The notes under the pieces: generated by a model | The model's database searches: none | The model's input: the letters and a program-made list of their open reading frames with translations, nothing else | Told to the model about the DNA's origin: nothing | Shown: in pieces, positions 3,429-19,814 of the stretch | Layout of the letters: every line of letters starts with the position of its first letter | Numbering within the stretch: the first letter of the stretch is position 1 | Translations under genes and position numbers: made by a program | Virus record (IMG/VR): IMGVR_UViG_3300035150_000085 | Span: 1 to 22,844 of that record | Strand: one strand, 5' to 3' | DNA from: a virus | DNA: 22,844 bases

Positions 3429-3838
3429 GTTCCGCCTCCCGATTCATCAAGGTCGGCTGCTTCCATCAGGGGTGCTTGGTACCCTATAATCCCGCCTGAA
3501 GCATAAAGTGGATCGACCGGGCCGATGCGCCATTCTTTTCCGATAGCCTCGAATGTCTCTCCTTCTGTGATGACTGTCTGATAATCAGACAGAATGAACC
3601 TTTGCAGGTTCGTACTGATACCAGCCGGGACAGGACCATTTTTCGGGACAGTCATTCCTTGTTCATGACTGATCCGAACATACCGAGTATCCTCCGCAAC
3701 GGGAGTCCCGAAAGGATCCTCTACCAGTCCACCCATCCAATCATCAACCATCGGTTTTGAATAAGTGATAATCGCTGTGGGGTTTTCTTTGATTTTATTC
3801 TGGATTGCTTTTCTGCGCTGAGTGAGTTCAGCTCTCAC
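3425..3838 (-). CDS. Head closure / head-tail joining-like protein
   Basis: A 137-residue protein with a GTG start at 3838. GTG is chosen because a GGAGG site lies six bases upstream and the codon overlaps the previous stop as GTGA (3835-3838). It opens with a basic helix (residues 1-18), followed by beta-rich sequence with several Gly/Pro turns, and ends in a Gly-rich tail. Size and order after the adaptor-like gene fit the SPP1 gp16-type head-closure ring protein. No motif proves it. Confidence 0.6.
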   Translation of the reverse strand: MRAELTQRRKAIQNKIKENPTAIITYSKPMVDDWMGGLVEDPFGTPVAEDTRYVRISHEQGMTVPKNGPVPAGISTNLQRFILSDYQTVITEGETFEAIGKEWRIGPVDPLYASGGIIGYQAPLMEAADLDESGGGT

Positions 3839-4296
3839 ACGTTCCCTCCAGATATCTCAGGAGCTGAGGAACCGCCCCAGCGCGGCCCGGCCTTGCTAAC
3901 AGTCTCCTCATAATCTTCCTGGAACTCAGCAAGAAGATATTCATAATACTTCAGGAGATCAGAAAGCCCCGTCCATTCTGTTGACTCTGCCCCGGTATCA
4001 GACCTTTTCAATCTGAGTTCCTTTCCAATCTTGGCAATAATCTGTTTCAGGGCTTTGACACAGGCATAGTCTTCTCCATCAGCATCGAACCAAACACCGA
4101 GCCGTGTATCAGAGACATATAGATTGAGAGTCACCCATTCATTCCCATCATGGTATTTGTAGAGTCCTTCATGCCTGTATGCTGTCTGGTTTACGGGGGA
4201 ACCGGGGAGATCCCCGGTGACATCCTGAATATCAATGAATCCGTCCGGATCATCAATCCTGAGGCGGACCTCTTTTAATTCGTTGAATGTTGCCAT
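3835..4296 (-). CDS. Head-tail connector (adaptor)-like protein
   Basis: A 153-residue acidic protein, the first of the neck block. It opens with 'ELKEVRLRIDDPDGFIDI', close in style to gp6-like head-tail connector proteins, whose N-termini read as LR.RI.D....I...I. The C-terminus is a Gly/Ser/Pro-rich tail. No Shine-Dalgarno is visible before the ATG. Instead a sigma70-like promoter (4303-4331) puts its -10 six bases before the ATG, so the mRNA may start at the A of the start codon. The downstream neighbour overlaps by four bases. Confidence 0.65.
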   Translation of the reverse strand: MATFNELKEVRLRIDDPDGFIDIQDVTGDLPGSPVNQTAYRHEGLYKYHDGNEWVTLNLYVSDTRLGVWFDADGEDYACVKALKQIIAKIGKELRLKRSDTGAESTEWTGLSDLLKYYEYLLAEFQEDYEETVSKAGPRWGGSSAPEISGGNV

Positions 4297-4302
4297 GAGA
4301 TT

Positions 4303-4331
4303 ATACTACTTTTTTACATATCATTTGGCAA
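4303..4331 (-). promoter_or_regulatory. Candidate sigma70 promoter giving a leaderless connector mRNA
   Basis: On the minus strand a TTGCCA -35 (4326-4331) and TAGTAT -10 (4303-4308) are separated by 17 bases. Six bases follow before the ATG at 4296, so the expected transcription start coincides with the start codon. The absence of a ribosome site before this gene fits. A perfect TATAAT also occurs three bases closer to the ATG, but it would start transcription inside the gene. Confidence 0.45.
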
Positions 4332-4338
4332 GGGGTCG

Positions 4339-4527
4339 TTATTTCAGTTTAACTTTCTCCCCGGCAGCATTGAAGAACTCTCCTGGTCCTGTGCAGACAT
4401 AGCATCCTGAGTTTTTCGTCATAGAAGAGAGAGCATTGCAGGCTTCCTGTTTTGTTTTATAGTATCCCAAGATTACAAGAGATCCTCCGCGATCAAACTT
4501 AACAATCATTATTCTTTCTTTTGGCAT
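4339..4527 (-). CDS. Small unknown protein with its own promoter
   Basis: A 62-residue protein of unknown function between capsid and neck genes. The ATG at 4527 follows a GGAGG site with suitable spacing. Its core ('LVILGYYKTKQEACNALSSM') resembles short phage proteins in which a strand is followed by a residue-counting helix with Ala/Cys; the unknown gene at 7607-7825 has a similar layout ('FCGVFDSEEKAKKACLSYL'). Two Cys (41 and 44, in 'CYVC') could bind metal or form a disulfide. A near-consensus promoter sits just upstream and a terminator precedes that, so this gene is transcribed separately from the capsid genes. Confidence 0.65.
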   Translation of the reverse strand: MPKERIMIVKFDRGGSLVILGYYKTKQEACNALSSMTKNSGCYVCTGPGEFFNAAGEKVKLK

Positions 4528-4544
4528 TTCGGCCTCCTGTTTTC

Positions 4545-4573
4545 TTTATAGCACGGATGCCCGAAAGTGTCAA
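4545..4573 (-). promoter_or_regulatory. Strong sigma70-type promoter after the capsid terminator
   Basis: Minus strand TTGACA (4568-4573) and TATAAA (4545-4550) are separated by exactly 17 bases, close to the sigma70 consensus. About 17 bases follow to the ATG at 4527, leaving a short leader with a GGAGG site. It lies directly after the T-run of the terminator at 4575-4601, so it restarts transcription for the neck and tail genes. Confidence 0.75.
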
Positions 4574-4574
4574 C

Positions 4575-4601
4575 AAAAAACCCCCGGTGGTCAGCCGGGG
4601 G
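4575..4601 (-). terminator. Rho-independent terminator after the major capsid gene
   Basis: A seven-base-pair GC stem (CCCCCGG at 4581-4587 with CCGGGGG at 4595-4601), a seven-base loop, and six consecutive T on the minus strand (4575-4580) form a textbook intrinsic terminator. It lies 76 bases past the capsid stop, so the abundant capsid mRNA probably ends here. Confidence 0.85.
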
Positions 4602-4676
4602 AAAGGAAGATATGGATGAAAATAGAAAAATGGTCAGGCAGTAATAGGATACCACGCTTGTCTTTTTCTGTCAACC

Positions 4677-5879
4677 CTACAGAGTAGGCAGTGTAATCTC
4701 AAGACACATACCAGTTCCGGAAGATCCGACCGGGGTGCTGTGAGAATAACCGAAGAACTCTGCAACGTATTCTGTCTGAATACCGTACCATACTCTCTCT
4801 TCCTGGGAGAGATTCAGAACAGAACCTTTGCCCTGCTCCATGGTCAGCTGCCGTTTTGTCAGCGTATAGGCTGCTCTCGGTACAAACAGATATGCATAAT
4901 CAGAATCAACACCAGGATAAGAATGTGTCTTTTCTCCGGCATAGATCGTATCACCCCGATAAGGAATGATCGCAGTCAGCCAAGACAGGGCCTCAAAGTT
5001 GGAAGGCTTACCCTTCCCGCCGAGATTCAGCTGCCCGTTGACTGTTCTCTGAAACCAGAGCTGCTTGTCATACGGAATAGCCAGATAAACCTGATCAGCG
5101 GCGATAGTCTGGCCTGTCTGTGCATCAGTCAGCCCGAGAAGAGTTGAGTATGCATTAACCAGAGTGTTGTACAACAGTTCTTCTTTCGTTGCGCCGGATG
5201 TGGTGTCGGCTGCCTGCTGCTGTCCTGTGTCCCATCCTGATGCCGCAGTTTTGGCGACCATTAGTCCGAGAACGTTCCGGTTGTTTCTGTATCCGACATA
5301 GCCACGGGTGACAGCGCGCATGACTTTCTGGATGTCATAGAGAGGGTTAAAGATCACGTCCTGCAGGCTGGTTTTATCACCGACTGCAAAAAGGTCCATG
5401 CTGACAGTACCAGTTGCCCCGGTCTTATGTTCCAGGAGAGGAACAGCGTCATTGTTGCCATAGATAGGCTCGAACGCAGCTCCGGCATCAAGGAACTCAT
5501 CCAGCCGGACAGACTTGCCGAAAGCATCATTGACCTGTTCATTCATGACCGTGTCAGTGTAGTCAGCTTCCTGCATCCTGCGCCGGGTGATATCAATCCG
5601 GAGAAGATCAGACAGAGTCGACCAGTCGTCAGGAAGCATGGAGGCGTTCTTTGCTTTCTTGTGAAGATCCTCAATCTTGCTCCATACCCGGGCATGGCCT
5701 TCCGACCCTTCCCAGATGTTCGACTTCATGACAATGTCTGTCTCTGATGTTTTCAGAGCCTCGGCATCATGTGATGCAAGATTCTGTTCTTTTTTTCCTG
5801 AGTATCCGACAGCTTTCTGTGAATACCCGTTTTTGACACGCTGTTCGATCAGCGCATTTTTATCAAGAATAAGTGCCAT
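4677..5879 (-). CDS. Major capsid protein (HK97-fold, probable)
   Basis: A 400-residue protein following protease-scaffold and decoration genes, the standard order. The ATG at 5879 has an AAGGAG site. The N-terminal 70 residues are polar and helical, as in delta-like or N-arm regions. The body contains features common in HK97-type coat proteins: 'FNPLYDIQKVMRAVTRGYV' (about 178-196), an 'AADQVYLAIPYDKQLWFQRT' strand (about 259-278), and a late 'YAYLFVPRAAYTLTKRQLTME' P-domain-like region. No single diagnostic residue can be cited, so the call rests on size, place and general pattern. A terminator follows, consistent with a very high-expression gene. Confidence 0.85.
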   Translation of the reverse strand: MALILDKNALIEQRVKNGYSQKAVGYSGKKEQNLASHDAEALKTSETDIVMKSNIWEGSEGHARVWSKIEDLHKKAKNASMLPDDWSTLSDLLRIDITRRRMQEADYTDTVMNEQVNDAFGKSVRLDEFLDAGAAFEPIYGNNDAVPLLEHKTGATGTVSMDLFAVGDKTSLQDVIFNPLYDIQKVMRAVTRGYVGYRNNRNVLGLMVAKTAASGWDTGQQQAADTTSGATKEELLYNTLVNAYSTLLGLTDAQTGQTIAADQVYLAIPYDKQLWFQRTVNGQLNLGGKGKPSNFEALSWLTAIIPYRGDTIYAGEKTHSYPGVDSDYAYLFVPRAAYTLTKRQLTMEQGKGSVLNLSQEERVWYGIQTEYVAEFFGYSHSTPVGSSGTGMCLEITLPTL

Positions 5880-5889
5880 GTTTCACTCC

Positions 5890-6303
5890 TTAGGTGCTGG
5901 CTTCTGCGCCGTGGAACCGCAGTCCCTCGAAACGAAATACGTCATTCGAGTCTTCGACTTTCCTGACATACCCAACCAGATACCGACCGCCGTCTCCTTC
6001 TGATTCGTAGAACTTGCTCTTGTTGGTATCCCAATAGACTTCCTGACCCCAAGTGTCAAAGGTCTCACCGGATCCGATCATATCAGAGCCGACTTCATAA
6101 ACCTGCGCCACATGGATAGTCCCCTGTGCGCCGCTGGCGATATCCTCATCGGCAAGGCCGAAGAACGGAGTCGCTTTGACGAAGTCTCCCTGATTGATTG
6201 CAGAGTCAGCTGTGATCTCAATGTGATCATCCTGGGTGACTTTTTCCTTGATGACGTATCCCTGGTGGTCAGAAGAGTTGTCCTGTGATGCGGGTAAGCT
6301 CAT
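5890..6303 (-). CDS. DUF2190-like capsid decoration (cement) protein
   Basis: A 137-residue beta-rich acidic protein immediately before the capsid gene. It shows the DUF2190-style series: 'AINQGDFVKATPFFGLADED' (35-54), then a Gly/Ile 'GTIHVAQVYEV' strand, a 'GQEVYWDTNKSKFY' segment (85-98), and 'GGRYLVGYVRKVED'. In this family the protein binds the outer capsid shell and stabilises it. The ATG is preceded by AGGAGG with five bases spacing, and only nine bases separate it from the protease-scaffold stop. Confidence 0.75.
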   Translation of the reverse strand: MSLPASQDNSSDHQGYVIKEKVTQDDHIEITADSAINQGDFVKATPFFGLADEDIASGAQGTIHVAQVYEVGSDMIGSGETFDTWGQEVYWDTNKSKFYESEGDGGRYLVGYVRKVEDSNDVFRFEGLRFHGAEAST

Positions 6304-7606: not shown

Positions 7607-7825
7607 TTATTCACTCTCAGGTTTTCCAGGGAAAGGAAAATATGCCCCATCCCAAGGAATGGTCTCATCTGGAATATTTCTATTTAATACGGCAGGACCG
7701 ATGAAATATAAATAGCTGAGACAAGCCTTTTTTGCTTTTTCCTCAGAATCAAATACTCCGCAGAACTCCCATTTCGATCCTGTCTCTCTATATTCAATTA
7801 TTTTACCAACAATAAATACATTCAT
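7607..7825 (-). CDS. Small unknown phage protein (DUF7336-like pattern)
   Basis: A 72-residue protein, last gene of the accessory cassette. The ATG at 7825 overlaps the methyltransferase stop (ATGA) and has a GGAGG site. The layout is a strand ('VFIVGKIIEY'), a turn, 'WEFCGVFDSEEKAKKACLSYL' and an aromatic, Pro-rich tail ('WDGAYFPFPGKP'). This strand-then-'GVF.SEE.A..A' pattern recurs in small phage proteins such as the DUF7336 group, whose function is unknown. The assignment is tentative. Confidence 0.6.
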   Translation of the reverse strand: MNVFIVGKIIEYRETGSKWEFCGVFDSEEKAKKACLSYLYFIGPAVLNRNIPDETIPWDGAYFPFPGKPESE

Positions 7826-8469
7826 CCTTTTCCTCCCAAATAAAGAAACACAGCCCCGAACTCTTCCTCGCCGCCGTATGTCTCTTCAATATCCTTCAGG
7901 TATTTAAACTGTTCCGGTCTGGCTGTAATAAAGTTGTACTGAAACTTATGTTTCTCATCTCCCGTTTTTTTCCAAAGATAAAAGTCCATGAAAATACAGA
8001 TCGTTACTCCCGGGATAAAATGCCGCCAAAAGATCCGCTGCGTCTGCAAAAAGTTCGATTCCTGTTTACAGGCGTCATCGATATAAAGCCCGATAGGGCC
8101 ACCGTGATACTCTGCTTTCCTGATCTCTTTTCGGATAACGGTTATCGGGACAGGAAAGACACTCAACATTCCGGAAACAAGTTCGTAATTGCTTGTCCCT
8201 GGTTCCAGATCTACACCCTCCCGCGCTGCCTTCATCGGCTGACGGCCGGAGACAATAAACCGATCATAGGTATAGATCGGCATACTCTTTCCTGATTCCA
8301 TAACAGCGAGCGCAGCCTGTGCTGTCCCTGCCCCCATCCAGGTGCCAAGCTCAACGATAGCCGTGTTATCCGGAGCAGCAAAAACAGCCTCTCTTATATG
8401 CTGGCCAATCTGACGGCCTCCCATGCTGGGAATCTTTTCAGCTTCCTTTGCCAAGTCAATCATATTCAA
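7822..8469 (-). CDS. Class I SAM-dependent methyltransferase-like protein
   Basis: A 215-residue protein with a Rossmann motif I, 'IVELGTWMGAGTAQAALAV' (residues 38-56), typical of methyltransferases of the TylF/Methyltransf_24 group, and a later acidic 'GLYIDDACKQ' strand that may be the metal- or substrate-side motif. Such enzymes commonly methylate sugars or small molecules, which fits its place after glycosyltransferases and a LicD-like gene. The start is probably TTG at 8469: AGGAGG lies seven bases upstream, and the codon overlaps the LicD stop as TTGA (8466-8469). The ATG two codons later would have a 13-base spacing. The acceptor cannot be read from the sequence. Confidence 0.75.
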   Translation of the reverse strand: MNMIDLAKEAEKIPSMGGRQIGQHIREAVFAAPDNTAIVELGTWMGAGTAQAALAVMESGKSMPIYTYDRFIVSGRQPMKAAREGVDLEPGTSNYELVSGMLSVFPVPITVIRKEIRKAEYHGGPIGLYIDDACKQESNFLQTQRIFWRHFIPGVTICIFMDFYLWKKTGDEKHKFQYNFITARPEQFKYLKDIEETYGGEEEFGAVFLYLGGKG

Positions 8470-9047
8470 ATCACAACCTCCTGCTTAAATCCCTTGCTAA
8501 GATATTCTTTCTGCTTCACACTCCTGATCGGTGTTCGCCAATCAGGGCCGTATAAATGTGTCAGATAACCTTCAGTATCATGAGGGATCAGATACAACCC
8601 GCCACGAAACTCAATCTCTTGCAGGTTATCCATAAAGCCGACAGGCATCGTGTAAACGCTCCACTTGCCGTTCGATCTCCTAACCTTACTGATGTGCATT
8701 CCTCTGACACGGAAAAAACTCCGCAGGTCAATATGATAGTCGTGCTTGTCAATAGCAACCTTCCAGTCATTCAAGCCACCACGGACCGTGATGATATCAT
8801 ACCCGAGTGACTCGAACTCTCTTGCAATATGATCTTCCAGCCCGAGAACTTTCTCAGCTTCCAGGAAAAAGTCGGCATCGAAATCCCACGGGATAAAGTC
8901 ACCATCACGGACATACCCGAGAACAATCCCGTCAGAAAGAATTGCTGGCTGTTTGTATTTCGCCAGGACAGCTTTCACTTCAATAAGCATTGAAGCCTGT
9001 CTTTGAAAATCTGATTCTGTTCTGTTTTTATTCGGGTCTTTCGTCAT
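8466..9047 (-). CDS. LicD-family nucleotidyltransferase / phosphotransferase
   Basis: A 193-residue protein carrying the LicD signature: 'ILSDGIVLGYVRDGDFIPWD' at residues 36-55 continuing into 'FDADF', with Asp39 and the Asp55/Asp57 pair as metal ligands. LicD enzymes (nucleotidyltransferase fold) transfer phosphocholine or other phospho-groups to surface glycans; fukutin is a distant relative. The ATG at 9047 is chosen over the upstream ATG at 9089 because an AGAGGAAAG ribosome site directly precedes it. Together with three glycosyltransferases and a methyltransferase it forms a glycan-modifying cassette. The substrate (capsid glycan or host surface polymer) is not known. Confidence 0.85.
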   Translation of the reverse strand: MTKDPNKNRTESDFQRQASMLIEVKAVLAKYKQPAILSDGIVLGYVRDGDFIPWDFDADFFLEAEKVLGLEDHIAREFESLGYDIITVRGGLNDWKVAIDKHDYHIDLRSFFRVRGMHISKVRRSNGKWSVYTMPVGFMDNLQEIEFRGGLYLIPHDTEGYLTHLYGPDWRTPIRSVKQKEYLSKGFKQEVVI

Positions 9048-9200
9048 ACTCTTTCCTCTTGTTTTATACGATACTTGAAAAAATAACATCCTGATGAAAA
9101 TGAATAAGTTTCCCTAACAGGAGAAAGATCATTTTTACAAATACCCTGTAATGGGAAATGATCAATAACAAAATACTGGCAATCACAACAACGCTTGTCT
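9048..9200 (-). other. Intergenic gap with weak stem structure
   Basis: This 153-base gap separates the GT-YopX gene from the LicD gene. An imperfect inverted repeat pairs GATCATTT (9127-9134) with AAATGATC (9156-9163), with an inner CCC/GGG pair, but no T-run follows on the minus strand, so it is not a convincing terminator. A TATAAA near 9070 could be a -10 for the LicD gene, but I find no matching -35. I see no gene here. Confidence 0.35.
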
Positions 9201-10295
9201 TTAGTCACTTATCTTCTCCAATAAAAAATGTTTATGAATCGTCCCGACAACCTCACACATGGCCATATATTCAGGAGTTAACTGGTCCCAATAATAATCA
9301 GGCTCCCAATCAGCTTTGCCTGTTCTTTTTCCCCCTGTTCCAAAGGCTGCATAATTCCAATGGCCACCCCAAATCACAGGTTTGTATAAATGTTTCGGTG
9401 TATGAATATCCTTAATAATATCTCCCTGATATACATCCTTCCCGTTTTTATCCTTCAGCCCTGTACAATACTCAATAACCCACCCATCAGGATAGATTCT
9501 TCCCTCGTAATGCTGATAATAAAAAGGACGACCATCAGATGTTAAATCAAATCCGTCATATAAATATTTTTCACCTGTCCAAGCTCTACGCTTCACCCTT
9601 CTCTCCTCCTTCAAATACCCCTTCCAAATATCAAAAATCCTGTATGTCACATGGTCTTCCGAAACCTGACGCCGAGGCTCCAATCCCTGAACGAGATCCC
9701 ACAGGTTTGATTTCATATGGACAATCTTCGTGTTCTCGCTGAACCAGTCCCAGCTATTTTGTTCAAGATTATACTCCGAACAGGAAAACCTTTTGATGCT
9801 GTTATCATTCAAAGCATGAAGTGTGATCGCTGTCTGATCCCCACCGAGATACTCACTAACATGCTCAACAAAGAGTTCAGGGCTGGAAATAATAGTTTCT
9901 GTCATCCTGATTATTGACTTCAGGATCCCCCGTCCTGCAGGGCGATAAAAAAGGACACCAGCATTGAGCCACCCCCTTGCTTTCCTGACGGTCACCCCGA
10001 GAGTGAAATCCTTCTTGAAAGCCGGAGAACAATCCCCGGTAAACATCAGGTCAGCATCTGTCATAATGATATCATCATTATGAGTCAATGCCCACCGCGC
10101 CATTTCCAAAAAAGCATACGAGGAAGAAAACGTCAGGAACGGATCACATTTCCTCGCTTTCTCTTCAGGGCGGGGAACTGTCAGGATGACAACCTCTGCA
10201 TCTGGATGATGAAGCCTAGCACTATATTCCCAAACTTTTAACAGTTTAGAGAAGTCGTTCAGGTCTTCTTCAAAATGAACCGTACAAATAATCAT
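9201..10295 (-). CDS. GT-A glycosyltransferase fused to a C-terminal YopX domain
   Basis: A 364-residue two-domain protein. Residues 1-225 are a GT-A-like transferase related to the next two genes upstream: 'IIMTDADLMF' holds the metal-binding DxD (Asp80, Asp82), 'GWLNAGVLFYR' follows at 108-118, and 'GGDQTAITLHAL' at 151-162. Residues 232-356 are a complete YopX domain: 'RRVKRRAWTGEKYLYDG', then 'EYCTGLKDKNGKDVYQGDII' (275-294) and the closing 'EVVGTIHKH'. The same domain stands alone at 12614-13042. The ATG at 10295 has an AGGAG site. A full ribosome site and in-frame GTG sit exactly at the domain junction, so a free YopX protein could also be made. Confidence 0.85.
   Translation of the reverse strand: MIICTVHFEEDLNDFSKLLKVWEYSARLHHPDAEVVILTVPRPEEKARKCDPFLTFSSSYAFLEMARWALTHNDDIIMTDADLMFTGDCSPAFKKDFTLGVTVRKARGWLNAGVLFYRPAGRGILKSIIRMTETIISSPELFVEHVSEYLGGDQTAITLHALNDNSIKRFSCSEYNLEQNSWDWFSENTKIVHMKSNLWDLVQGLEPRRQVSEDHVTYRIFDIWKGYLKEERRVKRRAWTGEKYLYDGFDLTSDGRPFYYQHYEGRIYPDGWVIEYCTGLKDKNGKDVYQGDIIKDIHTPKHLYKPVIWGGHWNYAAFGTGGKRTGKADWEPDYYWDQLTPEYMAMCEVVGTIHKHFLLEKISD
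9594..9611 (-). promoter_or_regulatory. Internal ribosome site and GTG start for a free YopX domain
   Basis: Inside the GT-YopX gene the minus strand reads AAGGAGG (9605-9611), eight bases, then an in-frame GTG (9594-9596, Val234). This is exactly where a stand-alone YopX protein would begin. It may produce a 131-residue YopX product or be a relic of two genes that fused. Confidence 0.55.
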
Positions 10296-11107
10296 AATCG
10301 TGTTCTCCTATAATCAAGACCGCGGACAGTTCTTTTCTGTTTTTTTGCCAGTTGTATTTTCTCTTTTTTGATATCCCACGGCATCTTTTCTGATGTCCCT
10401 ATTTCTTTCTTGTCTGTGTAAGATGCCCATTCTTTTAGGATGTCATACATCCAGGGATATCCCTCACGGAGAAATGCGCACCGCCTCAGTTTCCCTTTGA
10501 TATGGACAAACCGTGTATTCTCATTAACATACTGCCAGTCACAGTCAACAGCATTCCAAACCTGAGTCGGGAGAGAAACAGCATCAGCAATCTCAGGGTG
10601 CATTTCAATCATGTATCCCATTGCTGACTGATTCATCCCGAAGTATTTCACTCGCCATTGCTTGTGAAACCGGAAGTCATAATACATCCGGTCATTGATT
10701 TCCAGGAGCTTGCGCATCCATTCATGCGCGCGTTCTGTATTCCTGACAAAAAGAACACCGCCATTCAACCGGCACCGAGTTTTTTTCCAGGCAGGTTTCT
10801 CTGTATACCCGATGTCAAACAGGATCTCCCAGACATCCTCGATTGATTTTAAGGCGAGCATATCGCAGTCACAGAAAACAAGATCGTCGTCAGCCTGTTC
10901 CATATACTCGACCTGTGCCCGAAGTTTACAGGTATTGATCCACAGCCCTGGTTTCCTGTCGTCTTTCTGCATCGGGACATCTGGCCGGAGAGTAACGAAC
11001 TCAACATCCGGCATGTGTTTTTTACAGGAAGAAACGAAGACATTATACAGCTGTTGATAATCGAACGAAGCCCGTTCGTAGTCAAAGACTGCTGTGACTA
11101 TCTTCAT
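10292..11107 (-). CDS. GT-A-like glycosyltransferase, second of three
   Basis: A 271-residue paralogue of the gene at 11082-11891. It has the strand-plus-DxD motif 'DLVFCDCDMLAL' (Asp80, Asp82), 'LNGGVLFVRNTERAHEWM' (134-151), a 'QWRVKYFGMNQSAMGYM' region, and 'TRFVHIKGKLRR' near the C-terminus. These landmarks fit glycogenin-like/GT8-like or nucleotide-sugar transferase folds. It overlaps the upstream gene by 26 nt and the downstream gene by four, with a GGGGAGAT-type ribosome site. Donor and acceptor sugars are unknown. The strict parallel with its neighbour suggests duplication within the cassette. Confidence 0.8.
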   Translation of the reverse strand: MKIVTAVFDYERASFDYQQLYNVFVSSCKKHMPDVEFVTLRPDVPMQKDDRKPGLWINTCKLRAQVEYMEQADDDLVFCDCDMLALKSIEDVWEILFDIGYTEKPAWKKTRCRLNGGVLFVRNTERAHEWMRKLLEINDRMYYDFRFHKQWRVKYFGMNQSAMGYMIEMHPEIADAVSLPTQVWNAVDCDWQYVNENTRFVHIKGKLRRCAFLREGYPWMYDILKEWASYTDKKEIGTSEKMPWDIKKEKIQLAKKQKRTVRGLDYRRTRL

Positions 11108-11891
11108 AAACCGGTGCCCCTATCTCCCCCGCTTCCGCATACCAACTCTGCATCGCTGCCTTGTAGTTCCCGAATGGCAACTTCTGCCCGAGAACAAGAC
11201 GGCGAAGACGACTCTTCATGTGAACAAAGACTGTCCCGCATCTGAGGATATGAGGCCAGTCTGTGTCAACGGCATTCCAGATCCGGCACGGGAACGACTT
11301 CACAATCGCTTCATACTGTCCTGTCTCGAACAGGCAACCGAAGGCAGCCTGATTCATTCCGGCATACTTCACCCGCCATTTCTGGTGTTCATACCCGTTA
11401 TCGTACAGCCTCTGATTGACTTCTTTGTATTGCCGGAAGAAATCCCTGGCAGGCTCTGTCGACTTAACAAACATTATCCCGCCATTCATCGGCATTCTGC
11501 GGATCTTTACGTCTCCCCAATACTGACGGGTGTTCTTATCCTTCCGAAGACGGACCTCTGTCCGCTCTGTATAACCGACATCAAACTCCTGATCGAATAT
11601 TTCAGACTCAGAGAAAGGCCGGATGGCAACCATGTCGGCATCGGCAAGAATGATGTTCTCATCTGTCTCTTCGATTATCCGGAGCCACTCTTCGAGCTTA
11701 ATTGTATTGTAAAGAAAATTAAGAGCGTGCCGGTCGCCGTCAGGAAGGATCGGCGGGTCGACTTTAATGTCGAGGAACTTTGCTTCGGGGCAATACTTGC
11801 TGCAAGAATGCCGAAAGACTCTGGCGAGCATTTCATAATCAGCAAGGTTGTATTCGGGGGGATAGTTGAAGCTGACTGTGACTATAATCAT
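11082..11891 (-). CDS. GT-A-like glycosyltransferase, first of three
   Basis: A 269-residue protein with 'NIILADADMVAIRPF' (DxD at Asp84/Asp86), then 'MPMNGGIMFVKSTEPARDF' and 'HQKWRVKYAGMNQAAFGCLF', followed by 'GTVFVHMKSRLRR'. The order matches the gene at 10292-11107 almost landmark for landmark. The Asp pair would bind a divalent metal and sugar-nucleotide. No clear Shine-Dalgarno precedes the ATG at 11891; it overlaps the stop of the small membrane protein gene (ATGA), so translation is probably coupled. The acceptor may be the phage capsid or the host surface. Confidence 0.8.
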   Translation of the reverse strand: MIIVTVSFNYPPEYNLADYEMLARVFRHSCSKYCPEAKFLDIKVDPPILPDGDRHALNFLYNTIKLEEWLRIIEETDENIILADADMVAIRPFSESEIFDQEFDVGYTERTEVRLRKDKNTRQYWGDVKIRRMPMNGGIMFVKSTEPARDFFRQYKEVNQRLYDNGYEHQKWRVKYAGMNQAAFGCLFETGQYEAIVKSFPCRIWNAVDTDWPHILRCGTVFVHMKSRLRRLVLGQKLPFGNYKAAMQSWYAEAGEIGAPVYEDSHSSL

Positions 11892-12209: not shown

Positions 12210-12455
12210 CTATATTTCAGCAATAACATATGCGAGATAATAAACTAACGAAAAAAAGGCTATCAATCCACAAAGAGTCCAGAGTCCCTCTATCAGGAAA
12301 TCAAGCCAAAGTGAACGCCAAAACCTCTCTGTGTATCGCCCAAGCAAAATAAAAGATACACACAACGGCACTGAAACAATCAATGTTTTCAATGCTGTAG
12401 TTTTATCAAAAAAGCCCGCCAAGAAACCTGTGTCACACGCCGTTATAAACAACAT
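12210..12455 (-). CDS. Small membrane protein, 81 residues
   Basis: The ATG at 12455 is chosen over an upstream start at 12494 because GGAGG lies six bases before it. The protein has a hydrophobic helix at about 21-40 and a longer hydrophobic region at about 51-78, the latter probably one long or two short helices, with basic residues between ('GRYTERFWR'). It overlaps the upstream Cys-rich gene by 23 nt. It is the second of two small membrane proteins ahead of the glycosyltransferases. The function is unknown. Confidence 0.6.
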   Translation of the reverse strand: MLFITACDTGFLAGFFDKTTALKTLIVSVPLCVSFILLGRYTERFWRSLWLDFLIEGLWTLCGLIAFFSLVYYLAYVIAEI

Positions 12456-12612
12456 TCCTGTTCCTCCACATCCCGCACCAGCTGTTCTCGGCAACGATAG
12501 GGAATACCGGCTTTGCAGGGTCTTCTCCGCTTATAGGGTTGCCAGCCCTGCAATATCCTTTGTTATTATCGAAAGCGAGAAAGTGCTGGCACTGTTTACA
12601 TGTTTTGTTCAT
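12433..12612 (-). CDS. Cys-rich miniprotein, probable zinc binder
   Basis: A 59-residue protein with Cys5-x2-Cys8, Cys21 and Cys46 arranged as 'CKQCQHF', 'GYCRAG' and 'SWCGMW', a four-cysteine layout common in small phage proteins and likely to bind zinc. The ATG at 12612 is preferred to an upstream start because GGAGG lies just before it. The longer version would overlap the YopX gene by 70 bases without a ribosome site. No role is known. Confidence 0.65.
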   Translation of the reverse strand: MNKTCKQCQHFLAFDNNKGYCRAGNPISGEDPAKPVFPIVAENSWCGMWRNRNVVYNGV

Positions 12613-12613
12613 T

Positions 12614-13042
12614 TCAATCCTCCAATAGTTCTGGGGCTTCGTTGATGTTCCCGATAATTTCCATGTCATTCCAGAAATCAACATGGAATGAAACAGCTTC
12701 TTTGTTTTTTAATCTACATTGAAAACGTGCTCTTTTTTCGTCCCATTCACAAAACAATAATCCAAAGTTTTTATGCCTTTTTTCTGAACAGAACTTCAAT
12801 ATATCCCCCTCATAGATTTCCTTGTCATTATTGTCTTTGAGGCCGGTGTATTGTTCAAATTCAACATTCGGAACAAAAGTACTTTCTGTTATTTCATCAT
12901 CAGACATTGGAGTTTTCGAATGTTCAGCAGAGTACCCACCAGCCCTGACACAATCAACACCATTTTTCCAAATATCCTTTACTGTAAAATATTCAAAAGC
13001 TTTATTTTTTTCATGCCATGCTCGAAACTTAATCTCTCTCAT
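12614..13042 (-). CDS. YopX family phage protein
   Basis: A 142-residue protein opening 'MREIKFRAWHEKNKAFEYF', with the central YopX signature 'FEQYTGLKDNNDKEIYEGDI' and a closing 'MEIIGNINEAPELLE'. YopX proteins are widespread in phages and form oligomers; their function is unknown. The start is the ATG at 13042 rather than the preceding GTG, because AGGAGG is six bases upstream. A candidate promoter (13062-13090) lies between it and the head protein, so this may be the first gene of the accessory cassette's own transcript. A second YopX domain is fused to a glycosyltransferase at 9201-10295. Confidence 0.9.
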   Translation of the reverse strand: MREIKFRAWHEKNKAFEYFTVKDIWKNGVDCVRAGGYSAEHSKTPMSDDEITESTFVPNVEFEQYTGLKDNNDKEIYEGDILKFCSEKRHKNFGLLFCEWDEKRARFQCRLKNKEAVSFHVDFWNDMEIIGNINEAPELLED

Positions 13043-13061: not shown

Positions 13062-13090
13062 AGAATAGCACAGGTTCCTTTCTATGTCTA
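13062..13090 (-). promoter_or_regulatory. Candidate promoter for the accessory cassette
   Basis: Minus strand TAGACA (13085-13090) and TATTCT (13062-13067) are separated by 17 bases; the -35 matches consensus at five of six positions and the -10 at four. A 19-base gap with AGGAGG leads to the YopX ATG at 13042. It would let the YopX-glycan cassette be expressed apart from the head genes. Confidence 0.45.
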
Positions 13091-15016
13091 CCCTGATTGC
13101 GCAGGAATATAATATTGATTGTACCAATCATCCAGATAGTCAACGCGTTCGCCGTCTGACCATGCTGTCAGGTCACTCATGAACTCGTCATGATCCATAA
13201 GACGCTGACGAATAACGCATTGGCAGTTATGAACAGCAACTCCTTCAGCAATATATGAATGATCGTCTTCAACGGTTAAATTATACACATACCCCTTTAC
13301 TTTTTCCGATGATACACTTACAATAGATATATTATGGGTGTTAAAATTGATATTGATAGGGAGGTCATCGTCAAACTCTTTTGCGATGAGAATCTCACGG
13401 TTAAGCAAATAGCGGATAGATTGAAAGTCTCCCGGCCTTGTATCAACAGGAATCTTCTCAGGCATGGATTTAAACCGCTTACTATTACAGAGGCTCTCAA
13501 CCGCAGATATGAAAACGGATTCATTGCAAACACCGATGCTGCGCATAAGGCTGTCAGAGGCCGCGTCCACTCTGACGAAGAGAAAGCCAAACGCGCTCAA
13601 TTCTGGTCCGGACAAATCAGGTCCCCATACGAAAGGATGATGTATGAAGCCCTCATAGAGCGCGGAGAGAAACCTGTCCCGAACCTCGCTGTATTCGCTT
13701 TCAACATTGATCTCGCCTTTGAGGACGTAAAGCTCGCCGTTGAAGTTGATGGCGGGAATTGGCACACTAGCCCCGTTAAAATAAAGTACGACACGAAAAA
13801 AACTGTTTTCCTGGAATCCGAAGGATGGACAATCCTCCGATTTAGATTCGCAAAACGGGAGGGGTTTGATGTCGACGCTTACGCTGACGAGGTCATCTCC
13901 GTTCTTCAATGTATGCGCAGGGATAAAAGAACTACCTGATAAAAACGGATGATTTGATGTGGCCTTTATTGTTCTTTCGCCTGTATCAACAGTAATCATC
14001 TCACCAGAATACAAAGTCTTCCATGCCTTCAAAACTCTCTTGGCGTTTCCATTATGAGTGATGATATATTCTCCTGGAAGAATATCCTCAATATTTTTTT
14101 CTCCATGGAGAGTAAGAATCCTTGTCCCCTTTTGAAAACAGTTTGAGTGGGGATACCCCGGCAACTCTGAAAACCGATACGGACTATTCTGTGCCAAATC
14201 CTCACACTCACACGGCCAGCTTTGTCGTCCGGCATTCAGTTCCCAATCGTAAGAATCCCTGCACGCTGGGTTGCTCTGCCCCTGCCATGCGGCTGCTGTC
14301 TGCATGGCCGAATACAACTCAGACCGGACAAGGCGGAGTGCGCGGTAGTCAATAGCCCTGCCGACACGTCTGGAATACTCCCTAGTCCCGGGGAGAAGTT
14401 TCCCGTATCGTCCTGCACTGAAAGTATAATCCCGGCCGTTCCTGGCATAGACCTCGATGTCCCGGGCGATCTGTGTCACGTCCCGGCCCTGTGCTACTCC
14501 TGCCTGTACAACACGTTTGATATCTGCCTGATACTGCTGGTTGATCCCGCCCCAGATCCTCTCGCTAAAGGTGTACCCGTCGGGCCATTGTTGGCTGACA
14601 AGAGCAGCGACAAGCCTTTTGTTAATCGATTGATAGATATTTGAGATACCGGAAGGGACAACAGCAGATATGTCACCGGCTGCAATAAGTGCCTCAGTCA
14701 AATATTTTTGATCAATCCGTCCCGGCCCTGGTGTGTTTTCTGTAAGCCAGTAACAATCAGACACAACGCCAGGAACAGCCTTTTCAATAAACTCACTGAT
14801 TATTCGCGCGCTATCCCGAAGCTGTCTCTCAACAGCACGCCACCCTGAGGATGTTAAATCAGAAAGCTGTGCCGCCTCTGTCGCCCTGACAACAGCGGCA
14901 GCCTCATCGGCTGCCTGGATATAAACGTCTCTGATTCTCTTCAGTGCTGACAGCTGAACCCTCGGCCATTCTGCCCGGGCTGCTATATAAAGCTCTTCGA
15001 ACACCTCGTTCGTCAA
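13088..15016 (-). CDS. Phage head morphogenesis protein (MuF/SPP1 gp7-like) interrupted by an intein
   Basis: The frame encodes 642 residues: a head protein of 337 residues after removal of a 305-residue intein (Cys293-Asn597). The extein has the MuF features: a helical N-terminus, 'RALRLVRSELYSAMQTAA' (225-242), 'DSYDWELNAG', 'CECEDLA' (Cys269, Cys271) and 'ELPGYPHSN' joined after splicing to 'CQCVIRQRL'. The intein sits in the conserved PH-N-C-x-C motif, where Cys598 is the +1 nucleophile. MuF-type proteins are minor head components near the portal. The start is TTG at 15016, overlapping the portal stop as TTGA with a GGGGG site about eight bases upstream; there is no ATG in the first 230 codons. 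The intein part is open on both strands (see separate entries). Confidence 0.9.
   Translation of the reverse strand: MTNEVFEELYIAARAEWPRVQLSALKRIRDVYIQAADEAAAVVRATEAAQLSDLTSSGWRAVERQLRDSARIISEFIEKAVPGVVSDCYWLTENTPGPGRIDQKYLTEALIAAGDISAVVPSGISNIYQSINKRLVAALVSQQWPDGYTFSERIWGGINQQYQADIKRVVQAGVAQGRDVTQIARDIEVYARNGRDYTFSAGRYGKLLPGTREYSRRVGRAIDYRALRLVRSELYSAMQTAAAWQGQSNPACRDSYDWELNAGRQSWPCECEDLAQNSPYRFSELPGYPHSNCFQKGTRILTLHGEKNIEDILPGEYIITHNGNAKRVLKAWKTLYSGEMITVDTGERTIKATSNHPFLSGSSFIPAHTLKNGDDLVSVSVDIKPLPFCESKSEDCPSFGFQENSFFRVVLYFNGASVPIPAINFNGELYVLKGEINVESEYSEVRDRFLSALYEGFIHHPFVWGPDLSGPELSAFGFLFVRVDAASDSLMRSIGVCNESVFISAVESLCNSKRFKSMPEKIPVDTRPGDFQSIRYLLNREILIAKEFDDDLPININFNTHNISIVSVSSEKVKGYVYNLTVEDDHSYIAEGVAVHNCQCVIRQRLMDHDEFMSDLTAWSDGERVDYLDDWYNQYYIPAQSG
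13296..13324 (+). promoter_or_regulatory. Candidate promoter for the antisense homing endonuclease
   Basis: Plus strand TTTACT (13296-13301) and TACAAT (13319-13324) are separated by 17 bases, matching the sigma70 consensus at four and five of six positions. Nine bases lie between the -10 and the ATG at 13334, so any leader would be about three bases. No ribosome site is present. The element lies inside DNA that encodes the intein's C-terminal splicing block on the other strand. Confidence 0.35.
13334..13939 (+). CDS. Vsr-like EDxHD homing endonuclease encoded antisense inside the intein
   Basis: A 201-residue protein on the strand opposite the head gene. Residues 11-45 form a helix-turn-helix-like DNA-binding part ('VKQIADRLKVSRPCINRNLL'). 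Residues 96-190 match the Vsr-like fold of the I-Bth0305I group: 'RSPYE' (Glu100), 'FNIDLAF' (Asp126), 'LAVEVDGGNWH' (Asp139, His144), Asp153 in 'KYDTKK', and 'ESEGWTILRFRF'. This family contains homing endonucleases linked to split inteins and introns, so the likely job is to cut intein-free head genes. The ORF runs exactly from opposite intein residue 561 to residue 360, filling the gap between splicing blocks. Codons are in register with the opposing codons. All 14 Leu and 7 Ser codons avoid TTA, CTA and TCA, which would be stops on the other strand. Expression is unproven; no ribosome site is seen. Confidence 0.82.
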   Translation: MGVKIDIDREVIVKLFCDENLTVKQIADRLKVSRPCINRNLLRHGFKPLTITEALNRRYENGFIANTDAAHKAVRGRVHSDEEKAKRAQFWSGQIRSPYERMMYEALIERGEKPVPNLAVFAFNIDLAFEDVKLAVEVDGGNWHTSPVKIKYDTKKTVFLESEGWTILRFRFAKREGFDVDAYADEVISVLQCMRRDKRTT

Positions 15017-16455
15017 ACAGTGGTCCCCCTGTTAAGCATCCCTCCAGCGTCAAGAGCTGTCAGAGGGTCGGCGCTTGCCAAGGCTTTGAAAGCGGCCATA
15101 TCGCCGAGTCCTCTGACGAACTCTTTAAAATCATCCTCCGTGGCATTCGGGAAGTTCATATCCCAGAGCCGGTGTAGCTGGTGTTTCGTCATCCCGGCAA
15201 CACTCATTATTCTGCTGATACCGTCTGCGAAATTTTTAAAGATAATAGATTTTGTTTCGTCGTTGATAGCGTCCAGATCGTTCCATTCAACAGTCAGCTC
15301 GAACGCTGTGTTGTTCATGTTCACGATATTCATAAGCTGAAGGGATGCGGTGAAAACCTTTATCCATGGGGTCGTGCATTCTCTTTGGTCACCCCGGACG
15401 TACATTAAAAGGGTACTCATATTCTCCTGGACAGATGCGAGGTTCCCCTCTGTTTTCAGGCCCCAAGCGATCTCTGGGATCCCGGAACCTTCGACGACTT
15501 TCCGGTATTTCATTTTGAGCGCGTCCATGAAAGCCTGGTATGCCTGCAGGGGAGGGGCAAGCACTTCAGGCTTTTCATCTCCTGCTTCTGGCCTATGAAT
15601 CAGGAGGTCAATAGTGCTGATGTCCATATCCGTAAACATCTCTTCTGCGTTATCAAACCCATTCGTTTGAGCAAAGGCATCTGGATCAGATGTCCCGATA
15701 AGTAACTTAATCTTCCATTTCGCCAAAAGAGTCGAGAGGGACAGGTCAATATCATGATAGGCTTTCAGGTCACTGATGATCCGGCCATAAATAGAATGAC
15801 CCCTGATATCATCCCCGTCAGCTTCACAGGAAAAGGGAACCGGAAGCATCCCGATGGGGTTCCGGACCGTGCCGGCTTTCAGTTCAGTCGGCAGCATAGA
15901 GCCTCCCAAGTATTGAACGGTGATCCGCTCCCTGGTGAATGACCTCCGGCGTGTCACTGTTATGTTCCGGCTGTATGCTGCAGTGATCGTGATATTCTCT
16001 TCAACAATCAATTCCTGGATTTCATTGGTATCAATATTCCGGATAATATCACAGACAGTATTGTCCGGGATGAACTCCCAATAGAGTTTACCCTGGGAGA
16101 ACTTCGGCCAGACCCAAACAGTTCCTTCCCGCCGGCGCTGAATGTGTATCTGCTGGATCTGAACATTGAACTGCTTAATAAGGTCCTGCAGAACCTCGTT
16201 GAGGTTGTCATCTTCTGTTTTCGGGATAGGGAACCCCTGGAAAAAAACAGGAATCTTCACCGGAGCCATTGCCAGAGCAGAAGCCAGCTTCAATCCGGGA
16301 TAATCTCCGAAATACAACCCGCGGGTGAGGTTCTGGTTAACCTGCATCCCGTCTGTGAAGTCCCTGGTCTGCGGTGTGATTCTCTGTGTCTTAACCGGAT
16401 TATTTGTTTCGCTTCTGGTTTTGAACCAGTCGAATACACTGCTGAAAATACTCAT
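15013..16455 (-). CDS. Portal protein
   Basis: A 480-residue protein between terminase and MuF-type genes, the standard portal place, and of usual portal length. The early segment 'GLYFGDYPGLKLASALAMAP' is followed by 'QQIHIQRRREGTVWVWPKFS' and a beta-rich wing region. A long helical stem region includes 'LKAYHDIDLSLSTLLAKWKI' and 'QENMSTLLMYVRGDQRECT'. The portal forms the dodecameric DNA gate at one capsid vertex and docks the terminase. The ATG at 16455 overlaps the terminase stop by four bases and has AGGAGG five bases upstream. The call rests on order, length and general pattern rather than a single motif. Confidence 0.88.
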   Translation of the reverse strand: MSIFSSVFDWFKTRSETNNPVKTQRITPQTRDFTDGMQVNQNLTRGLYFGDYPGLKLASALAMAPVKIPVFFQGFPIPKTEDDNLNEVLQDLIKQFNVQIQQIHIQRRREGTVWVWPKFSQGKLYWEFIPDNTVCDIIRNIDTNEIQELIVEENITITAAYSRNITVTRRRSFTRERITVQYLGGSMLPTELKAGTVRNPIGMLPVPFSCEADGDDIRGHSIYGRIISDLKAYHDIDLSLSTLLAKWKIKLLIGTSDPDAFAQTNGFDNAEEMFTDMDISTIDLLIHRPEAGDEKPEVLAPPLQAYQAFMDALKMKYRKVVEGSGIPEIAWGLKTEGNLASVQENMSTLLMYVRGDQRECTTPWIKVFTASLQLMNIVNMNNTAFELTVEWNDLDAINDETKSIIFKNFADGISRIMSVAGMTKHQLHRLWDMNFPNATEDDFKEFVRGLGDMAAFKALASADPLTALDAGGMLNRGTTV

Positions 16456-18821
16456 TTATTCCTCCTGGCTGCCAAGGCACGTTTGGCTCCCGGCGTATAC
16501 TGGATGGTTTTACCTGTGTAGAAGCACAAAATTAAACTGTCCGCGAGATCAGGACTCTTCCCGTATCGTTCCTTGAAGTCTTTCTTCGGCTCGATAATCT
16601 TTGCCTCCGTTTTGTCGTAATCATATAATCTTTCCGAGAGTTCGTCCATAAGTTCATCATCATCGGGGATGTCAATCTCATCTATAGGCAGCTCGAACCA
16701 CATTTCCGTGGCGAGGTTCTTGTATTTTCGCTTTTGGATAGCCGACGAACCAAAGTTAATCGGGACCACTTTCGCCCCGAACTCCCGGAGCCGGTCAGTC
16801 ACGCCACCGTTATGTGTCCATATTGGTTTTGTTGATTCTGGACACATGGAAAAATATAGTTTACTATCTCCGGTTATACAAAGTTCATAAACATTATCAT
16901 AATATTCTTCCTTCTTTTCTGTCTTCAAACAAGTATCATATTTGTTTTCTTTTTGCTGATATTCAAAAATACAATAATTATCAAACTTCCGTGTTATTTC
17001 TCTTCCGAATATTTTACTTTTACTACCTGCTTTATGTTTTAAATAAGCATTTCCTTTCTTTCCTATTTTGTAAATCAACTCCAATATATCATCAACAAGC
17101 CATTTACTCGATGTAACATAATATCTGACTCCTTTTTTCCAGAATCCATCTCCTTTTGCAAAAGCATCAAGAAAGGAATCTATAATTTCATTCGAATTAT
17201 TAGCAACCCATCTCGGAACTGTTTTATATCGAAATCCGAATCCGCCTTTATAGCAATTATTTTTTATCCATCTGTGAAGATTTTTATTAAAGACTTTTAT
17301 CCCGTCTTTTTTTATTTGTGCTTTTCCGAACATTGAGCATAATTCATATATTTCATCAATATTATCCTGTATCTTTTGAGTTATCATTAAACTATAATCA
17401 TTTTTTTCAAAATGACCTTCGCTAACATACCAGCCAAGAAAAGAAGCAAAATTCACAGGATCTAAAACATTTTCCTTTGAGATTTCTTTATATCCCCCGT
17501 ATGGCATTTCAATGATATTCTCCGGAATAATAAACCCCATCTCGCTATTATCATAATTGAAATCTGAATCAAAAATAACATATTTGCGGTCAAGACAATT
17601 TTCCCATGACGTCTGCTGATAGTTGTATTCTTTCCTTGTTTTAAATGGAAGAATATGAGAAAAACTATATTGAAAATTGCCACATTTTATTATTCTTGTT
17701 TTTTCTCTTTTGTTATTCAATCTTACTTTTTCAATGACAACATTCCCACTGTTATCTTTTGAATAAACATCATCACCAACCTTTAAGTCTTCTACAAGAA
17801 CCCACCCCAAAGGTGTCAATACTTTTGTCCCTTTAACAACACACCCGACTCCGGTGTCGTCAATCTTTATTGTCGTCGAGGCTTTATGCTTCACGAATGA
17901 CCAGACTTCTTTCGCCACCCTTTGGGTGTCTGCGCCGTGAAGGATCTTGCAGTCAATAACCTTCATCCCCTGCCGGAGATACATCACAGTCCTGTCATCC
18001 CCGAACCGGGCAACATCAACCCCGCATGAAAGCGGACCATCTGCAGGGAGGCGACGATTCATAGCAGCCCGGACAGCAACACGGGACATCACTGCATTGA
18101 AGCCCTGTGCCTTCGGCTTTCCTCCCCACTTATGCTCAGCGATATCAGGCCGAACAGCATAGTCATGCTTCATCTGTGTCATGAGTTTATCAGGAAACCA
18201 TGGGTTGTCTTCTTTCCCTGGTTTCAGTTCCAGGGCTATCGTGTTCGGTGGCGGGTTAATATAGAATAGTTTGTAAACCGGGTCCATGTCTTTGTCACGG
18301 TTGAACGTGATCCAGATTTCCGAACCGTCTTTCCGGAACGTCGGAAAAATCAGGTCCCAGGACTCAACAGGGATAGACTCGGCCTCGTCAATCCAGCACA
18401 GATCGTATCCTTCGAGACCCTTCAACCCTTTGGCTGTCTTTAGGTCCTTCAGCCCGGCAAAATAAAAATATGAACCATTCCGCTTGTTGATGATTCTGGA
18501 CCTGGAAGGGATGGCCTCCCAATCTTCCTCGTATCCAAGCCGACAGATTGTGTCCCATATCAGGGAGTACGAGGATTCTTCAAGCGTTTTTTGAATCTCA
18601 CGGCCACAGAAACACTTCAGGTGTTCAGCGTGAAGCTTCTGAACAAGAAGGGAAGCAACCGACCAGGACTTCGCCCCAGCTCCGCGGCCACCGTGGGCGA
18701 CTTTGAAGTCAGCCGGTTCTCGCCAAGACTCGAACTTCGGGGCGACAGTAATCCGCTCTTTCCATTCAAGCAGGTCTAAAAGTTCATCCTGTTCTTCCCT
18801 GGTAAGCGAATCTAAATTCAT
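16452..18821 (-). CDS. terL: Large terminase subunit interrupted by an intein
   Basis: The frame encodes 789 residues, 444 without the 345-residue intein (327-671), a normal TerL length. The ATPase has a Walker A of the terminase type 'GGRGAGAKSWSVA' (44-56, Lys51, Ala in place of the usual Gly before Lys) and a Walker B 'LCWIDEAE' (Asp145, Glu146). The RNase H-like nuclease has 'CGVDVARFGDD' (Asp269, Asp275/276), 'IKIDDTGVG' (Asp321/322) and 'SPDLADSLIL' (Asp758, Asp761). The intein falls just after the second acidic motif, splitting the family's GVGGGV stretch between Gly326 and Gly672. Unspliced protein would have its nuclease site divided. The ATG overlaps the terS stop (ATGA), with an AAGG site. 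TerL packages DNA into the prohead and cuts it. Confidence 0.93.
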   Translation of the reverse strand: MNLDSLTREEQDELLDLLEWKERITVAPKFESWREPADFKVAHGGRGAGAKSWSVASLLVQKLHAEHLKCFCGREIQKTLEESSYSLIWDTICRLGYEEDWEAIPSRSRIINKRNGSYFYFAGLKDLKTAKGLKGLEGYDLCWIDEAESIPVESWDLIFPTFRKDGSEIWITFNRDKDMDPVYKLFYINPPPNTIALELKPGKEDNPWFPDKLMTQMKHDYAVRPDIAEHKWGGKPKAQGFNAVMSRVAVRAAMNRRLPADGPLSCGVDVARFGDDRTVMYLRQGMKVIDCKILHGADTQRVAKEVWSFVKHKASTTIKIDDTGVGCVVKGTKVLTPLGWVLVEDLKVGDDVYSKDNSGNVVIEKVRLNNKREKTRIIKCGNFQYSFSHILPFKTRKEYNYQQTSWENCLDRKYVIFDSDFNYDNSEMGFIIPENIIEMPYGGYKEISKENVLDPVNFASFLGWYVSEGHFEKNDYSLMITQKIQDNIDEIYELCSMFGKAQIKKDGIKVFNKNLHRWIKNNCYKGGFGFRYKTVPRWVANNSNEIIDSFLDAFAKGDGFWKKGVRYYVTSSKWLVDDILELIYKIGKKGNAYLKHKAGSKSKIFGREITRKFDNYCIFEYQQKENKYDTCLKTEKKEEYYDNVYELCITGDSKLYFSMCPESTKPIWTHNGGVTDRLREFGAKVVPINFGSSAIQKRKYKNLATEMWFELPIDEIDIPDDDELMDELSERLYDYDKTEAKIIEPKKDFKERYGKSPDLADSLILCFYTGKTIQYTPGAKRALAARRNK
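16809..17843 (-). other. LAGLIDADG intein in TerL with Gly at the +1 position
   Basis: Residues 327-671 of the TerL frame. Block A is 'CVVKGTKVLTPLGW' with Cys327, then 'EDLKVGDDVYS'. Block B reads 'YSFSHILPF' with His389 but Ser386 instead of the common Thr. The endonuclease domain has two dodecapeptide-like motifs, 'FLGWYVSEG' (461-469, Glu468) and 'FLDAFAKGDGF' (550-560, Asp558). Block F is 'NVYELCITGD', and the end is 'IWTHN' with His670-Asn671. The next residue is Gly672 (codon GGT), not Cys, Ser or Thr. The DNA is clearly more AT-rich than the TerL gene around it, which suggests acquisition from another source. Terminal motifs support splicing or cleavage chemistry; the missing +1 nucleophile makes the outcome uncertain. 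Confidence 0.88.
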
Positions 18822-19654: not shown

Positions 19655-19814
19655 CTTGTACACTTAAACCACTATTTTCAAAAAGGTGTATATAGGCAAA
19701 ATTATGAGATATTTTTAACTCTATAGGAGACTTTTTCAAAACAGCCTTTTAAGTGTACAAGGTCTACCGGAAGTGTACCAAATGTAAAAAATGTCCTTTT
19801 ACTAGTTTACACTT
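19655..19814. repeat. Operator-like repeat cluster (AAGTGTAC motif)
   Basis: The 205-base gap between 19649 and 19853 holds four copies of an AAGTGTA(C/A) motif. A 14-base stretch at 19655-19668 (CTTGTACACTTAAA) is the exact reverse complement of 19748-19761 (TTTAAGTGTACAAG). Further copies are AAGTGTAC at 19771-19778 and, reversed, GTTTACACTT at 19805-19814, which covers the -35 of the regulator promoter. The surroundings are very AT-rich. This suggests binding sites for the adjacent HTH regulator, though replication-origin iterons are also possible. I see no gene in the gap. Confidence 0.6.

Follow-up and report, generated by a model that had tools for sequence, protein, structure and literature searches.

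Phage genomes are mosaic, and accessory gene cassettes known as morons are added to them at gene boundaries. In a second familiar arrangement, genes with in-frame internal starts yield both a long and a short product. The glycosyltransferase and YopX domain families are also already known, and the insertion of a cassette is in itself ordinary phage mosaicism. The YopX papers found give no function for the domain in their listed abstracts, and a literature search for YopX together with a glycosyltransferase found no paper. Here we analyse 22,844 nucleotides of viral DNA (IMG/VR record IMGVR_UViG_3300035150_000085, positions 1 to 22,844; the window), in which a glycosyltransferase gene runs in frame into a YopX domain with a ribosome-binding site (RBS) at the joint. 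Comparison with a close relative indicates that this fusion very probably arose through insertion of a cassette and displacement of a stop codon. What is new is the geometry, in which a cassette placed at the RBS of a gene that overlaps its neighbour gives a chimera that carries an RBS at its joint.

A glycosyltransferase–YopX chimera with an internal RBS

The minus-strand gene order in the window is GT1, GT2, GT3 and LicD, after which come an ORF predicted to be methyltransferase-like and the head genes. The features of the locus are as follows.

9201–10295 (−): fused ORF GT3–YopX, 364 amino acids, translated as an open frame without a stop
9606–10295 (−): GT3 glycosyltransferase domain (GT-A fold), ending ...IWKGYLKE; 90% identical to GT3 at locus L004 of the relative
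9605–9611 (−): Shine–Dalgarno AAGGAGG at the junction, where the relative has the LicD RBS
9603–9605 (−): GAG codon where the canonical YopX start ATG would sit, from alignments with free YopX
9594–9596 (−): in-frame GTG, candidate internal start of a free YopX, at the Ile codon of MREIKF
9201–9605 (−): YopX domain (PF09643, TIGR01671), from the Pfam match (3e-8), model and fold match
9047–9604 (−): 558-bp insert, with 7 bp in its place in the relative (blastn blocks)
9044–9208 (−): 54-amino-acid Cys-rich ORF (CxxC...C...C), which follows YopX in the insert, from translation
8466–9047 (−): LicD-family gene downstream of the insert (Pfam 1.8e-11), 89% identical in L004
12614–13042 (−): YopX2, a second, free-standing YopX with its own AGGAGG and ATG
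12433–12612 (−): Cys-rich ORF after YopX2; the relative has a homologue at this place, without YopX
10292–11107 (−): GT2, tandem glycosyltransferase paralogue, from profile match and paralogue comparison
11082–11891 (−): GT1, tandem glycosyltransferase paralogue, from the same two lines of evidence

The Cys-rich ORF at 9044–9208 overlaps the YopX stop with its start and the LicD ATG with its stop, and no Pfam family was found for it. A protein search found no phage match for the LicD protein, and PADLOC reported no defence match.

The original prediction that a third glycosyltransferase continues in frame into a complete YopX is borne out by a frame that stays open from 10295 to 9201 and by matches to both domains. 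The AAGGAGG, eight bases and in-frame GTG that it placed at the junction are also present (9611–9605, 8 nt and 9596–9594), and the reverse strand there reads ...GGG TAT TTG AAG GAG GAG AGA AGG GTG AAG CGT AGA GCT TGG..., appearing in the assembled sequence (within 9560–9660) as ...AAGGAGGAGAGAAGGGTGAAG.... By chance, 0.85 occurrences of AAGGAGG-N4-10-RTG are expected in the window, counting both strands; among 205 internal in-frame start codons, only the junction GTG has a 7-nt Shine–Dalgarno match. No class of RBS in the window is stronger than the one to which this site belongs, and fold prediction leaves it unpaired. Because the signal falls on the domain junction, is unique among the internal starts and coincides with the LicD RBS site of the relative, it stands out from chance. 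Open frame, Shine–Dalgarno scan and fold prediction agree on a real in-frame chimera whose internal RBS is strong and unstructured. Programmed frameshifting was also considered and is unneeded, since the frame is continuous.

Sequence comparison identifies the GT3 part as a paralogue of GT1 and GT2, and alone it matches no Pfam family. In a first AF2 model, of the whole fusion, the glycosyltransferase part was poor because the alignment held only two GT3 rows, and a separate model of this part was adequate; a mixed alignment with GT1 and GT2 rows was left out of modelling because those rows were misaligned to YopX. The separate model (pTM 0.79) has a GT-A glycosyltransferase fold, and Foldseek matched it to BoGT6a, the GT8 enzyme LgtC and the PBCV-1 capsid glycosyltransferase with E values of about 1e-8 to 1e-6. 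In total 287 PDB matches had E <= 0.001, and the best 50 of the 287 were nearly all glycosyltransferases. GT3 resembles GT6 (BoGT6a), GT8 (LgtC) and the PBCV-1 enzyme (2p72) in its fold and a DxD-like TDAD motif, and stands in tandem with two paralogues, but sequence identity to these structures is only about 12–16%. It differs from them further in having no Pfam match of its own, and is best described as a predicted glycosyltransferase.

Residues 273–355 of the fused ORF match Pfam YopX at 3e-8, with 34.2 bits against a gathering threshold of 22.4; for TIGR01671 this domain, YopX1, scores 29.8 bits, below the NCBIfam cut-off of 41.3. A model of residues 231–355 lies mostly at pLDDT 80–97, and Foldseek returned the YopX structures 2p84, 2qyz and 2ox7 (E 1e-5 to 2e-4). 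Pfam, PHROG and fold matches to the YopX family (PF09643, TIGR01671, phrog_98) cover the C-terminal domain of the fusion, which keeps the RAW and TGLKDKNGKD.YQGDI motifs. It departs from the family in being joined to an upstream enzyme and in its degenerate N-terminus, where ERRVKR stands for MREIKF and there is no ATG: in place of MREIKFRAW with a start codon we find ERRVKRRAW, in which the RAW part is kept.

The GTG had been taken as the point where a free YopX would start. Alignment instead puts the canonical Met three codons upstream, at a GAG (9605–9603) that overlaps the Shine–Dalgarno, and sets the GTG against an Ile codon. The canonical start in relatives takes the form ATGAGAGARATHAAR; free YopX genes nearly always begin ATG-(0-3 codons)-AGA-GAR-ATH-AAR, and 145 of 152 have an ATG start. 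A YopX started at the GTG would be three residues shorter than the canonical form and could still fold, because the first modelled strand (residues 236–239) begins after the GTG (residue 234). The GTG is therefore a plausible YopX start, though not the canonical one. As the junction RBS is strong and unpaired, translation of free YopX from this codon is plausible too, and on balance we lean towards it; production of both the fusion and a free YopX appears likely from these sequence features.

An empty site in a close relative

The close relative IMGVR_UViG_3300031552_000007 (G001; loci L004 and L105) is colinear with the window at ~80% nucleotide identity. Its GT3 ends ...KGYLREAGCDEGSE*, inside LicD, and at the junction site L004 reads GAGGGAGG-N6-GTG(LicD), which is the RBS and start of LicD. 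Homology between window and relative (blastn blocks 11107..9605 and 9046..7825) breaks at the last G of AAGGAGG (9605) and resumes at 9046, within the LicD start codon, with 558 bp between these points in the window against 7 bp in G001. At both YopX loci of the window, G001 has an empty site of the kind expected of cassette insertion at a Shine–Dalgarno. GC content of the insert is 0.37, compared with 0.45–0.46 in the flanking GT3 and LicD, and GC3 is 0.33 in YopX compared with 0.49–0.50 in its neighbours GT2, GT3 and LicD. A search for unfused relatives, proposed with the original prediction, was successful: in five other viruses the relative of GT3 stops where the glycosyltransferase domain does or shortly beyond it, the GT3-like proteins of G404, G406 and G407 at or just after IWKGYL and that of G408 somewhat later, all without YopX.

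These comparisons change how the junction is to be read. The fusion had been ascribed to loss of a stop codon, but the GT3 stop was most probably displaced rather than mutated, with the YopX/Cys-rich cassette inserted upstream of it. Nor do they support the view that the RBS is a leftover of a free YopX gene, since it lies where the relative has its LicD RBS and the canonical YopX ATG is absent.

In the mechanism we propose, GT3 would at the outset have overlapped LicD, with its stop inside LicD and beyond the insertion point. A two-gene cassette, YopX plus the 54-amino-acid Cys-rich protein, would then have entered the spacer that separates the RBS of LicD from its start codon. By displacing the GT3 stop, the insert would have led GT3 to read in frame into YopX, a one-in-three outcome; the other two frames at the junction stop quickly, at GTGA and at a TAG shortly after. 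Ribosomes completing GT3 would necessarily make the 364-amino-acid chimera, which follows from the sequence as assembled, if that is correct. The junction RBS, in the old LicD RBS place, probably also starts free YopX at the GTG, and the Cys-rich ORF and then LicD would be translated through start/stop overlap. Parsimony suggests that the cassette was gained in the window rather than lost in G001, and the YopX tail may be near-neutral for GT3.

The fusion is seen in one virus only, and the empty site in one close relative only. Searches turned up no closely identical donor cassette, and the whole fused protein had no match in GTDB genomes. The phages collection gave only weak matches, to the YopX part, and no near DNA relative; a general empty-site test across Enterococcus and Staphylococcus phages gave mosaic matches only, with no clean pair.

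A second YopX between an RBS and a gene start

At the YopX2 site, G001 reads ACAGGAGG-N6-ATG(Cys) and the window reads ACAGGAGG-N6-ATG(YopX2)...TTGGAGGATTGAA-ATG(Cys). The old Shine–Dalgarno serves YopX2 in the window, and the 3′ end of YopX2 (TTGGAGGATTGA) serves the Cys-rich gene. YopX2 is placed in the same way as the fused YopX, with an old RBS before it and the start of a gene after it, a layout that could reflect gain in the window or loss in G001. We also considered that YopX and a Cys-rich gene might move together as a pair, here in two copies, and rejected this for the second copy, where G001 has the Cys-rich gene without YopX.

Among YopX genes more broadly, GGAG occurs in the last codons or stop of 70 of 151, compared with 13% of body windows, and in 59 of the 151 it is suitably spaced to serve the start of a next gene. 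GGAG(G) often falls within the codons of the conserved ELLE at the YopX C-terminus, for example at 12614–12630 (−) in the window. YopX therefore seems well suited to a position between an RBS and a start, possibly just as a general habit of tightly packed phage genes.

Fusion is uncommon among YopX genes

About 175 YopX genes were surveyed without finding one fused to a recognisable gene, and no clear gene fusion was present in 152 distinct YopX loci, a set collected by motif searches and not a random sample. The upstream ORF ends at or inside the YopX start in 66 of the 152, always in the other two frames, and a four-base overlap of the ATGA/GTGA type is the commonest arrangement (22/66). Four counted loci, and a few others that lack the motif, have an in-frame upstream stretch longer than 40 amino acids; on inspection none looked like a gene except a short case at L047. 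In that locus, around position 2501, a short in-frame segment MNDKDFKKLAESVDQMGAIMHGDSIPHR precedes the YopX start, is flanked by repeated TTNNMMN and is absent from the related L101; it may be a small in-frame insertion or fusion. Open frames are 122–176 amino acids long for the 25 YopX found in 398 Bacillota genomes.

Most genes beside YopX belong to replication, recombination or packaging, and at most 1 of 123 neighbouring ORFs matches a glycosyltransferase family. The fusion had been put forward as a clue linking YopX to glycan modification; that reading is not supported, given these neighbours, the unfused GT3 relatives and the free YopX in the window itself.

Alternative explanations

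An assembly or sequencing error of one base at 9612–9596 would make GT3 a separate, overlapping gene that ends at the YopX start. Each single-base deletion from 9612 to 9596 stops GT3 after 233 amino acids at the TGA of GTGA, each single insertion tested at the junction ends it at 236 amino acids (TAG), and the resulting gene overlap would be of the type seen most often upstream of YopX, in a survey where fusions are otherwise unseen. However, the site has no homopolymer longer than GGG, the flanking genes are all in frame, and short-read consensus indels across about 17 nt are rarer than a one-in-three coincidence of frame, and we regard such an error as very unlikely. The conclusions on the insertion and the RBS are independent of it, and hold even if the junction contains an error.

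A different question is which products the locus makes. The GTG may be an ordinary valine codon, with the internal RBS a silent relic and YopX1 a decaying passenger at the GT3 C-terminus. The missing ATG, the change from MREIKF to ERRVKR at a usually conserved Phe and the alignment of the GTG with an Ile codon are all consistent with this, and with the ATG and part of MREIKF lost, the fusion could now be the sole form. Against it stand the 7-nt Shine–Dalgarno match at 8-nt spacing, unpaired and unmatched among the 205 internal starts, and the position of the first modelled strand, which would leave a free form able to fold; we find expression of the fusion alone rather doubtful. YopX might alternatively have been recruited as a functional domain of a selected bifunctional glycosyltransferase, with fusion and free form both made and used. 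Both domains appear complete, the junction RBS is intact and the change from GAGGGAGG in G001 to GAAGGAGG improves the Shine–Dalgarno match, yet there is no second example and no linker, GT3 relatives are unfused, glycosyltransferase-like ORFs are nearly absent beside YopX (at most 1/123) and the other YopX in the phage is free, all of which makes selection for a bifunctional enzyme improbable. Cassette insertion with displacement of the GT3 stop remains the preferred account of the fusion.

Inteins and other differences from the relative

Several further differences separate the window from G001. The minor head (MuF-type) gene at 13088–15016 (−) contains an intein, with an insert at about 14139–13193 that is absent in G001. 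Antisense inside this gene, at 13334–13939 (+), lies a 201-amino-acid ORF with HTH and MTES_1575/DUF559 nuclease domains. Relatives of this ORF (33–35% identity) run antisense in Gordonia phage Vivi2, within its annotated MuF/head-morphogenesis gene, and in Angelicage and Fosterous they match on the minus strand beneath that gene, making the ORF a candidate for a recurrent antisense homing endonuclease. The terminase large subunit gene (TerL; 16452–18821, −) has an intein at 16810–17836, whose Hint and LAGLIDADG-like matches fall short of the Pfam cut-offs, and TerL of G001 is uninterrupted at that site.

Between GT1 and GT2, L004 carries at 3737–5981 a region absent from the window, with a cytidylyltransferase–PEP mutase fusion gene (TIGR02320 above cut-off) and a second ORF that by appearance is a putative phosphonopyruvate decarboxylase; phosphonate decoration in L004, together with LicD, is possible. 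Between the methyltransferase-like ORF and a protease-like gene, window positions 7607–7825 (−) have no G001 alignment (gap 7824–7610), another gene swap. The 107 bp at 19655–19761 also match G001 in inverted orientation at about 71%, and may form an inverted repeat close to the small terminase gene.

Implications and comparison with known systems

The fusion is uncommon yet can be explained as a by-product of the shuffling of genes among phages, and is not evidence for YopX acting on sugars. It documents, with an empty-site relative, a route to gene fusion that needs no stop mutation: a cassette enters between the RBS and the start of an overlapping downstream gene. It also cautions against inferring function from a domain fusion, as the glycosyltransferase–YopX fusion is explained by insertion geometry and is unseen elsewhere. 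We give little credence to the bolder view that overlapping phage genes are instant-fusion hot spots giving two-product genes and that this chimera is now a working enzyme with YopX as its partner domain.

Like a phage moron, the insert in the window consists of AT-richer accessory genes at a gene boundary, in a layout that would keep downstream expression. Here, however, the breakpoint lies exactly at the Shine–Dalgarno of an overlapping gene pair, which leaves the upstream gene without its stop and creates a chimera. The window ORF likewise has the anatomy of genes with internal starts, a long ORF that contains an in-frame start served by an RBS of its own, but here a recent insertion has brought two unrelated domains together, and the short product is putative.
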